A DNA stretch of 64,000 nt from Bacteroidetes bacterium GWF2_35_48 (GTDB lineage: Bacteria > Bacteroidota > Bacteroidia > Bacteroidales > GWF2-35-48). Below are positions 2,759 through 20,974 of the stretch, piece by piece. Position 1 is the first letter of the stretch, and each line of letters starts with the position of its first letter. Under the pieces are notes generated by a model that made no database searches, was not told the origin of the DNA, and saw nothing but the letters and a program-made list of their open reading frames with translations. The position numbers and the translations under genes were made by a program. The stretch lies in assembly GCA_001769125.1 (NCBI GenBank), contig MEOG01000105.1:124001-188000 (forward strand). The letters are read 5' to 3'.

Positions 2759-3988
2759 TTAATCAAAATCATCATCGTCAATAAATTTCAAATCTTTATC
2801 TCTGCGAATATTCATGGATGGCACTCCTTTATTGAGTTCAACAAGACCTGTAACACAAATTTTTCTTCCGAGTAATTCTTTTTCCGGAGTATATTTAAAA
2901 TTAACGCGATCTTTCTTCCATATTGTTATAGTAAAAATCTGATTTGGGAATTTCTGATCAAGATTAATAAAAGTACCACCCGATTTTTCATGATATTTTG
3001 TTGAAACTACTGTACCGCAAACACAGGCTTTTTCTCCAATCAGAACCTTCGATTGAATTGTATTAAATGTTTTTTTGGGGAGCGTTTTTGGGTCAAGCGG
3101 TAATTCTTCATCTTTTTCTTTTTCTACCAGCCAATTTTTAATGTCGAAAACTGCTTCCATTTTATTCTCAAGGTCATCATCAAGAGTATGAAAAAAATCA
3201 ATCCCCGTGAGTTTTTCAACACTGTCAATACTGCATGCATACTGCATTACCAAAAATTCGCATTTGGTATTTGGCATGACGAAAGCAATGCCTTTCTTTT
3301 CATCACCCTCGTTGTCAATAACAACTTTATAATAATATTCAGGAATAGCGATTTTATTTTCCCCAAGCCGGGACAGATTTTTGGTAAGAATACCCCCTGT
3401 AACAACATAAAGCTGTTCTTTGTATTCCGCAACATAAGCTCTTAGTTTATCTTCAAGATCCGCCCATCGTTCCCTATTTAATTCTGGTCTTTGTGGGGAC
3501 ATGTTGGAGTAATAATACGATTCGCTTATTGCTCTTTTCGACCATTTAAAATCAGCAGACGGTGCCAGATGACCTCTGTCGTACCCGCTATACCAGTAAT
3601 CACTTTTTTCTCCGGTTACTTTTCTTAAAAGAGAATCTTTTCTGAAATCATTGGTTCGGGATTGCGATCCATGAAGAATATCCGGAGTAATAATATGAGC
3701 TACCCAATGCGCATGATTGTAGGCTTCATTCCAGCATATTGTCATTGCAGAGTGATTAACTAATAAATCTCCCTCGGTAATTTTAGGTAGCCCAAAAGCA
3801 TTGATATCTCTTCTGACCCGTTTAAGTTTTAAATCTTCTAAAATTTCCAACAGAGATTGCTCTTTTTTCTTAATAGAAAAAAGTTCCGTTTCATTTTCTT
3901 TGATTAATATATCAATATCTTTATTCTGCTGTGCAGATGCCGATGAAACCCAAAAACTAAAAATCAATATTACAGATAAAAACCTCAT
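2759..3988 (-). CDS. exported DNA/RNA non-specific endonuclease with C-terminal OB-fold
   Basis: 409 residues. The N-terminus is a signal peptide (hydrophobic to about residue 16, then SASAQ). Residues 75-280 match the NUC1/Serratia nuclease family: the DRGH motif lies at 137-140, with His140 the expected general base, and SNMSPQ near 161-166 supplies the Mg-ligand Asn of the family. Residues about 310-400 look like an OB-fold nucleic-acid-binding domain with a CVCGTV strand. Residues 25-60 are charged and helical, perhaps coiled coil. Likely role: nucleic-acid degradation outside the cytoplasm, for nutrition or biofilm remodelling. A copy of a structured repeat begins 32 bp upstream of the start, and the histidine kinase gene follows after 14 bp. 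Confidence 0.9.
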   Translation of the reverse strand: MRFLSVILIFSFWVSSASAQQNKDIDILIKENETELFSIKKKEQSLLEILEDLKLKRVRRDINAFGLPKITEGDLLVNHSAMTICWNEAYNHAHWVAHIITPDILHGSQSRTNDFRKDSLLRKVTGEKSDYWYSGYDRGHLAPSADFKWSKRAISESYYYSNMSPQRPELNRERWADLEDKLRAYVAEYKEQLYVVTGGILTKNLSRLGENKIAIPEYYYKVVIDNEGDEKKGIAFVMPNTKCEFLVMQYACSIDSVEKLTGIDFFHTLDDDLENKMEAVFDIKNWLVEKEKDEELPLDPKTLPKKTFNTIQSKVLIGEKACVCGTVVSTKYHEKSGGTFINLDQKFPNQIFTITIWKKDRVNFKYTPEKELLGRKICVTGLVELNKGVPSMNIRRDKDLKFIDDDDFD

Positions 3989-4020
3989 CTCAAAAAAAAT
4001 ATAGAGTTTACAAGAAAATT

Positions 4021-4166
4021 CAGTGTCAGATAAGAAAACGTCAAGTTCAATGCCTGCCCCGCTTTGCGGGGGCTTTCGAAGACCTGAAAATCAGGAGTGT
4101 ACTAATGTACATGACTGTTTTCAGGTCGAGTGTAACGCAGAAATTGATGTTTTCTTGCTGATACTG
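4021..4166. repeat. compound hairpin repeat, copy 1
   Basis: A long imperfect palindrome. The outer arms are 4021-4044 and 4144-4166, pairing over about 23 bp with one bulge. The inner helix GACCTGAAAA (4081-4090) pairs perfectly with TTTTCAGGTC (4118-4127). A terminal helix TGTAC (4098-4102)/GTACA (4107-4111) closes a TAAT loop. An extra GC-rich hairpin (CCCCGC/GCGGGG) at about 4055-4071 is absent from copy 2 at 20655-20781. It lies in the 5' flank of the endonuclease gene. I do not recognise the family. Confidence 0.8.
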
Positions 4167-4259
4167 TATAGAATATTCAAAAATAATAAAATTTAAGAAA
4201 CATTTATGTAATATTGACATTTTAAAATAAATTACAAAAATAAAAGATAAATTATTATT

Positions 4260-4339
4260 GGATTAAGGATTAAGAAGTAGGAGTAGGATTAAGGAGAAAA
4301 CCAAGAGGTTCTTTAATCTTTAATCCTCATCCTTAATCC
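4260..4339. repeat. GGATTAAGG inverted-repeat element, copy 1
   Basis: An imperfect palindrome that opens with GGATTAAGGATTAAG and closes with CTTTAATC, TTTAATCC and ATCCTTAATCC. Copy 2 lies at 4436-4519. Left-arm fragments reappear at about 7590-7618 and 10423-10446. Probably a MITE-like or simple-sequence-derived extragenic repeat. No coding potential. Confidence 0.7.
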
Positions 4340-4366
4340 TAAATCTATTTAAAAGAAAAAAGCAAT

Positions 4367-4413
4367 CCTGTGAGGTATCGCGAGTTGGCAAGAGTGCAAG
4401 CTATCCTCACAGG
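4367..4413. repeat. CCTGTGAGG hairpin between the two GGATTAAGG elements
   Basis: CCTGTGAGG (4367-4375) pairs perfectly with CCTCACAGG (4405-4413) around a loop containing GGCAAGAG. The 3' flank CTCACAGGTTTGCTG recurs at 10557-10571, where the 5' arm has been lost. No good U-tract follows, so a terminator role is doubtful. Confidence 0.65.
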
Positions 4414-4435
4414 TTTGCTGTGAATAAAAATTAAT

Positions 4436-4519
4436 GGATTAAGGAGTAGGAGTAGAATTAGGGAGGAATCCGAGAGATTCTTTAATCTTTAATCCTTAAT
4501 CTTTAATCCTCATCCTAAA
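4436..4519. repeat. GGATTAAGG inverted-repeat element, copy 2
   Basis: Second copy of the element at 4260-4339, in the same orientation and with the same arm sequences. The copies are 176 bp apart, with a hairpin between them. It ends about 20 bp before the start of the D-threonine aldolase-like gene, so it occupies that gene's leader. Confidence 0.7.
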
Positions 4520-4540
4520 TCTTAAATCTATTAAAAACAA

Positions 4541-20524: not shown

Positions 20525-20654
20525 AAAGCTACTCCGAAATTTTAATTATCTTTACATGCCTGCCACCAAAAGTATGACAAAATCAAGCATAGGCACAGCA
20601 AAAATGAGTTTTCAGAAGGAATTCAATCAATAACTAGTGCCTGCAAGAAAACTC

Positions 20655-20781
20655 TATGTTTGATGAAGAAAACGTCAAATACAAGGCTTTCGCAGTCATG
20701 AAAATCAAGGAGTTTACTTTTGTAAATGACTGTTTTCATGACAAGAGTAACGCAGTAGTTGACGTTTTCTTGCAAACATTA
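20655..20781. repeat. compound hairpin repeat, copy 2
   Basis: The outer arms are 20655-20678 and 20759-20781. The inner helix GTCATGAAAA (20695-20704) pairs with TTTTCATGAC (20733-20742), and TTTAC (20713-20717) with GTAAA (20722-20726) around a TTTT loop. It shares AAGAAAACGTCAA, GGCTTTCG, GGAGT, ATGACTG and AGTAACGCAG-type blocks with copy 1 (4021-4166). It lacks copy 1's GC hairpin. It ends one base from the stop of the small Lys-tailed gene. Confidence 0.8.
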
Positions 20782-20782
20782 A

Positions 20783-20974
20783 CTACTTTTTCTTTTTTTT
20801 CTTTTTTGAAGAAGTTGGATTATGAGTACTTTTAAAGCTTGAAATAGCGCCTTTATTTGTTTCTTTCCATTTCATAAGCGTTTCCCCGTCAAGATTCTGA
20901 GGAAGTTCATAAATAATTCTGTTTGTTGAGGGATCGAGGTACATTTTTACCCCATTTACTTTTGCCTGATCCAT
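20783..20974 (-). CDS. small hypothetical protein with poly-lysine tail
   Basis: 63 residues, family not recognised. The body has a normal soluble composition (KMYLDPSTNRIIYELPQNL, then DGETLMKWKE), and the last nine residues are Ser-Ser-Lys7, encoded by an A-rich run on the coding strand. The basic tail could bind nucleic acid, or it may reflect slippage-prone sequence. It stands alone, with a structured repeat one base after its stop. A real small gene is more likely than not, because the codon pattern is sensible and the stretch is free of stops. Confidence 0.5.
   Translation of the reverse strand: MDQAKVNGVKMYLDPSTNRIIYELPQNLDGETLMKWKETNKGAISSFKSTHNPTSSKKKKKKK

Follow-up and report, generated by a model that had tools for sequence, protein, structure and literature searches.

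A hairpin element of the ERIC kind in Bacteroidota, probably a MITE with a strand-specific RNA core and an ISNCY-type mover

Introduction

ERIC sequences have been known since 1990-91 and are widely used for fingerprinting. According to reviews, their range comprises the Enterobacteriaceae and Vibrionaceae, and in Yersinia they destabilise mRNA in an orientation-dependent manner via an RNase E site and the ribosome (PMC2229807, PMC10969869). The MITEs Correia/NEMIS and RUP, 100-160 bp in length, give transcripts that form long hairpins, and an insertion sequence is presumed to move these elements in trans (PMC2229807). In the literature searched, we found neither an account of the origin or the mover of ERIC nor an earlier report of ERIC relatives in Bacteroidota, most subscription papers lying outside the search.

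Here, we analyzed a 64,000-nucleotide stretch of a Bacteroidetes genome (hereafter the window), in which a sequence-only reading had described a compound hairpin in two copies with compensating base changes, resembling no named family. We find it probable that these hairpins represent a non-autonomous transposon (MITE) of the ERIC kind that measures 140-190 bp, has a strand-specific RNA core and is moved by ISNCY insertion sequences; its mobility is deduced from the sequence.

Results

The two copies in the window

Both hairpins lie where they had been described, and their stability is far beyond chance. RNA folding gave -72.0 kcal/mol (z -10.3) for 4020-4166 and -46.2 kcal/mol (z -5.5) for 20643-20785, and in each case 0 of 200 shuffles equalled the native sequence. 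The compensating changes quoted in the sequence-only reading are correct, with GACCTGAAAA/TTTTCAGGTC in copy 1 against GTCATGAAAA/TTTTCATGAC in copy 2 and the other helices likewise, whereas the limits of both copies had to be moved outwards to 4004-4164 and 20637-20779 (Table 1), with a target duplication bounding each. The matches of the covariance model R1 span 4021-4166 and 20654-20781. Copy 1 is the older one, with a decayed duplication, and the duplication of copy 2 is intact. In the core of copy 1, the stem TGTAC/GTACA is closed by a TAAT loop, and its nested GC-rich palindrome is missing in the alignment from copies such as L021.

Table 1. Features of the two window copies and their surroundings
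Feature	Positions	Strand	Basis or remark
Copy 1, older, GAG...TAC	4004..4164	+	R1 91.2 bits, E 4e-23; end alignment to other copies
Decayed target duplication on the left of copy 1, AATATA	3998..4003		Direct reading; 4/6 bases identical to the right one
Decayed target duplication on the right of copy 1, TGTATA	4165..4170		Direct reading
Inner hairpin core of copy 1	4081..4127	+	GACCTGAAAA/TTTTCAGGTC helix, CAG-GAG / TGA-CTG internal loop
GC-rich small palindrome, about TGCCTGCCCCGCTTTGCGGGG, in internal loop of copy 1	4051..4071		Copy alignment
Copy 2, GTGCCTGCAAGAAAAC...CAAACAT	20637..20779	+	R1 131.8 bits, E 1.1e-34 on +; 31.8 bits on -
Left target duplication of copy 2, TAACTA	20631..20636		Direct reading
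Right target duplication of copy 2, TAACTA	20780..20785		Includes the stop of the 63-aa gene (- strand)
Inner hairpin core of copy 2	20695..20742	+	GTCATGAAAA/TTTTCATGAC helix, GGAG/TGACTG loop, TTTAC/GTAAA stem
Small 63-aa gene, TAG stop docked by right end of copy 2	20783..20974	-	ORF list; docking pattern elsewhere

The endonuclease flank of copy 1 is incidental, as copies adjoin many different genes. Two Endonuclease_NS (PF01223) genes of the own genome (L079:359-1384 and window 2759-3988) each adjoin a member of the transposon system, the former with an insertion sequence at its stop codon and the latter with copy 1 on its 5' side; both neighbourhoods are probably coincidence. The region 4258-4530 adjoining copy 1 is rich in GGATTAAGGA / TCCTTAATCC repeats, and similar sequence also flanks the L026 copy and a spacer of the sister species. 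The window spacer beside copy 1 holds a further inverted repeat at 4367-4412 (CCTGTGAGG ... CCTCACAGG). A short open reading frame with GGAG as ribosome site and ATGACTG as start was considered and rejected: one-base indels in the helices shift the frame between copies, and in copy 2 it reaches a stop after ten codons. The sister species G001 retains the gene neighbours and lacks the element; the spacers are too diverged for a base-exact empty site.

A large family with sharp ends and TANNTA duplications

The family is far larger than the two copies first recognised. BLAST with the first copy returned 45 matching pieces at about 40 places of this genome, an 18-base pattern of the type-A end (up to 2 mismatches) matched 196 times against 10 for a control, and a second, type-B pattern (up to 3 mismatches) 115 times against 6. 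Together, the pattern and BLAST counts suggest dozens of copies in the genome, more than 40 and, from the end counts, about 100. Alignment of the copies with their flanks revealed sharp ends, TAGTG(T/C)(C/T)(A/T)GCAAGAAAAC on the left and GTTTTCTTGCNNNCACTA on the right, and type-B copies carry TGTCCATAAAGT ... GACATTATGGACA around the same core. On both sides lies a 6-bp TANNTA target duplication with identical NN; in a first set of 113 copies the right-hand six bases recur at the left end of 82, against a mean of 19.7 with shuffled flanks. Since a second arm inside the left end pairs with the right end, the hairpin proper covers about 127 positions. Only 2 of 75 copies lie inside an open frame. 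Many copies, sharp ends and target duplications bear out the suggestion of a mobile structured element rather than a cis-switch.

Further forms were seen in passing. At G000:C27:31631-31670, two opposed type-A ends are separated by only 40 bases, so that nothing but the ends of an element is left. Small nested palindromes occur in L010-L018, L027, L028, L059 (1309-1458), L087 (2488-2635) and copy 1 (4051-4071), in forms close to CCTGCCTGTCCGGTAGGCAGG or GATACATTGAGCTTGCCGAAATG and as a 40-base CAGGGCAAACACCCTGTGAGTGTTTGAGCC; in the cases seen they sit at internal loops, as if the loops were the sole tolerated or the favoured sites.

Covariation and strand polarity of the core

The core has the layout GGAG-stem-UGACUG (AAGGCUUNCG / GAGNGUAACGCAG), and the proposed arrangement of conserved GGAG and TGACTG opposite each other between helices is supported. 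For the covariation analysis we used 31 diverse copies that had been gathered by BLAST or sequence profile and not by structure. Over 40 pairs, 95.1% of the cells are standard pairs, compared with 75.2% in shuffles and at most 45.2% in slid structures, and the covariation score is 0.541 against 0.189 and at most 0.119, respectively. The further copies with paired substitutions that the sequence-only reading called for thus exist, with changes on both sides in 29 of the 40 pairs (20.2 in shuffles). Among private stem mutations of copies in the own genome, 10 were counted, of which 6 break a pair and none is compensated; the numbers are few and give no sign of upkeep of single copies. This count covers copies chosen by BLAST, and a second set (A6) was left aside since its members had been selected by their model score.

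Wobble cells comprise 123 G-U and 14 A-C in the 31 copies, a count that is somewhat favoured by structure prediction on the plus strand, so that a restricted count and free folding are the fairer tests. When wobble-consensus columns were left out and at least two Watson-Crick types required, 32 G-U stood against 12 A-C cells (p 0.004, a guide only since the sequences are related). In free folding the plus strand is better in 31 of 31 copies, with a mean of -50.0 versus -37.4 kcal/mol, and the homologous strand folds better in 11 of 11 ERIC and 12 of 14 Chlorobiaceae loci. Selection on a folded RNA or single-stranded DNA, as originally proposed, is supported by these data, and the strand polarity favours RNA. 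Single-stranded DNA might be biased in the same way, but target duplications argue for transposition as double-stranded DNA; we therefore take RNA to be the most likely form in which the one fixed strand functions.

ISNCY insertion sequences share the ends

The own genome encodes a PF01609 protein of 443 aa (L079) that scores 332 bits, above cut-off, to the ISNCY family model (NCBIfam NF033593). Its gene lies between the inverted ends GTGTCTGTCCATAAACTC and GTGTCTGTCCATAATGTC, which are type-B ends, and is flanked by TAATTA. A family search in 99 related genomes yielded two further full-length ISNCY proteins with both ends (L357, L358), here in type-A form, GTGTCTGAAAGAAAACT and GTG(T/C)CTCTAAGAAAACTC, with the duplications TATATA and TATTTA. 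The element thus has its terminal inverted repeats in common with autonomous elements (L079 in the own genome, L357 and L358), and the target duplication is TANNTA in both. As the end types and duplications are the same, the ISNCY elements are the likely movers, and it is likely, judging from these common features, that an ISNCY transposase moves the small element in trans. The hairpin core was not found in any insertion sequence examined. Because the ISNCY elements share the ends without the core, the small element can be described as insertion-sequence ends joined to an RNA-like core. Against this assignment counts that ISNCY genes and elements were not found together in every genome. The presence of target duplications and terminal inverted repeats led us to set aside a HUH/IS200-like origin. 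Contigs C39, C57 and C72 (L082, L083 and L084) share a type-B right end, GACTGTATGGACAGACACTA, at their start, as though another multi-copy insertion sequence had broken the assembly there; its body was not found.

Docking on stop codons

Insertion sites were analyzed in 175 copies whose flanks reach 400 bases or more, and a TANNTA duplication is recognisable in 107 of them; genes were taken as the longest open frames and not from a trained gene finder. About one third of the duplication-bearing copies, including copy 2, lie exactly on the stop codon of a gene, mostly by the right end: in 33 of 107 the right end coincides with the stop codon of a gene directed towards the element, 32 of them at two exact in-frame distances, whereas the left end is so placed in 7 of 107 (right versus left, p 4e-5). 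Only 6.9% of non-coding TANNTA sites at this genome's loci fall at a stop codon. The genes are rarely shortened, since in the class whose last stop base comes from the element, the target had been a stop codon beforehand in 14 of 16 cases. The L079 insertion sequence, too, is docked on a stop codon, in this case with the left end, and the taste for stop codons, as distinct from the one-end bias of the small elements, therefore probably belongs to transposition and survival. Among the ERIC loci in annotated plasmids, eleven in all, right-end and left-end cases were about equal.

The core matches ERIC and is found in several phyla

The core CAGGAGTGTAC-TAAT-GTACATGACTG prompted a comparison with ERIC, for which enterobacterial copies from 11 loci were taken from public records. 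R1, which was trained without ERIC, matched 6 of the 11 loci at E <5e-4, all on the expected strand, with a best match of 39.8 bits (E 2.7e-9). Conversely, the covariance model R2, built from ERIC copies only, matched 24 of 51 Bacteroidota and Chlorobiaceae loci at E <0.001 (best 1.1e-8), and of its listed matches with E up to 1, all 26 fell on elements, with no other match in the 216 kb. R2 did not, however, report either of the window copies, which counts against the proposed explanation. By these reciprocal searches the core is the ERIC core, and the earlier statement that no named family resembles it does not stand. Core sequence and one-strand fold with the same polarity are common to both, as are the imperfect palindrome of about 127 bp, the many intergenic copies and the lack of a transposase gene. 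The terminal repeats differ, TAGTG... here and TATAC... in the fetched ERIC copies, and because ERIC termini are missing we speak of the same kind but a new branch and not of ERIC in the strict sense. Neither the window nor any of seven Chlorobiaceae loci, L139 and six ERIC loci matched an Rfam family above its gathering threshold; weak hits to one microRNA and one snoRNA family were taken as chance palindromes.

R1 matches were obtained in 105 of 393 genomes of the order and in 41 of 395 genomes drawn from the phylum. Of the latter, 37 belong to one family, which we identify as Chlorobiaceae since the FMO bacteriochlorophyll protein is present in 5 of 5 genomes tested. On named contigs, the exact core pattern occurs among the matches listed in Bacteroidales, Vicingaceae, Saprospiraceae, Chlorobiota and others, and in single MAGs labelled Lentisphaerae and Thermoanaerobacterales, labels that may be wrong; of these two, the model also scores the Thermoanaerobacterales contig and one Lentisphaerae contig. 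As judged from these matches, the ERIC-like core spans several phyla. The Chlorobiaceae copies carry it in a G+C-rich form, and at L140-L157 many core copies lie between quite different ends, TAAAAA or TATTTA beside GAGGTGCC.

Discussion

The combined data probably describe an ERIC-kind MITE with a strand-specific RNA core and ISNCY as mover. An ISNCY transposase of the DDE type would cut and insert the element in trans, as supported by the ends in this genome and two related ones. Between the ends lies a structured core that is absent from the autonomous elements and is kept by covarying changes across Bacteroidota, Chlorobiaceae and enterobacterial ERIC. One fixed strand seems to be the functional one, most likely as RNA from transcription of the element, for example from a neighbouring gene. 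In Yersinia, the orientation of ERIC, the ribosome and RNase cleavage are reported to determine mRNA stability (PMC2229807, PMC10969869). The hairpin may likewise act post-transcriptionally within a transcript, for which we see a little less than an even chance, and docking on a stop codon would set its end right next to the terminating ribosome. It counts against the proposal that docked copies place the less stable minus strand in the mRNA of the docked gene. Mobilisation in trans, transcription and action on mRNA are all steps that we infer.

The chief alternative holds that transposition, not the host, is what the fold serves: amplification would depend on the RNA of a source copy, or on a one-strand DNA hairpin, much as animal SINEs depend on their RNA, and copies once inserted would decay freely. 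It is in line with this idea that pair changes on both sides occur between subfamilies and not within recent copies, and that the core is kept with different ends, types A and B here and others in Chlorobiaceae and ERIC. The uncompensated private mutations lean the same way, but they are few, and the orientation bias at stop codons suggests some dependence on host genes. We regard this explanation as quite plausible, if clearly short of probable; it is compatible with an action on mRNA, and both can be true. It is, by comparison, very improbable that structure was never selected, the arms being kept alike by template switching or gene conversion in a core made of the joined ends of a decayed insertion sequence. 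The whole element is indeed an imperfect palindrome with insertion-sequence ends, but correction of arms would hit both strands alike, whereas the restricted wobble count (32 G-U versus 12 A-C) is strand-biased and the better-folding strand is the same in three groups. Moreover, conservation extends to asymmetric internal loops, and the core is absent from the insertion sequences.

The likeness to ERIC could also be convergent, both being long hairpins that occupy similar sites and have a short core in common by chance. Differing terminal repeats and the shortness of the conserved primary sequence would allow for this, but three places match in order and register (AAGGC on the left, GGAG-stem-TGACTG, and GNG-AACGCAG on the right), strand and architecture are the same in both groups, and Chlorobiaceae show the core again in G+C-rich form. 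We thus consider convergence unlikely. More speculative than the ERIC-kind MITE, and in our opinion rather doubtful, is a broader view in which the core is an RNA superfamily across several phyla, carried as cargo by different transposon ends and functional as RNA, either aiding transposition or controlling docked genes, with ERIC merely its enterobacterial branch.

As strand-specific folding is common to three groups, it seems to be the RNA and not merely a palindrome that is conserved. Placing ERIC in a phylum-spanning family, with covariation data and a likely transposase in Bacteroidota, makes its origin and mover testable, and the exact, mostly one-orientation docking on stop codons is a checkable property that ties insertion to the end of translation. 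What is new here is an ERIC-type branch for which a likely mover can be named and whose insertion habit is reproducible.

Among described systems, Correia/NEMIS and RUP resemble the element as MITEs with long-hairpin transcripts and a presumed insertion-sequence mover in trans, but both their core and their movers differ, and they are set apart by description. The ISNCY elements (NF033593) resemble it in type A/B terminal repeats and TANNTA duplications; they differ in encoding a transposase, of 443-496 aa, and in lacking the RNA core, and their role here is that of the mover. ERIC (IRU, RU-1) differs in its ends, TATAC... instead of TAGTG..., and in its host phyla, and the TANNTA duplication and an ISNCY-type partner are established only for the Bacteroidota branch. 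Common to both are a 127 bp hairpin from a long imperfect palindrome, the non-autonomous nature, many intergenic copies, the core CAGGAG-N-NTAC-loop-GTAN-N-TGACTG with flanking AAGGC and AACGCAG blocks, and better folding of the same strand. The element is best read as a new branch of the ERIC kind, one that is much wider and lies far beyond the range known for ERIC.
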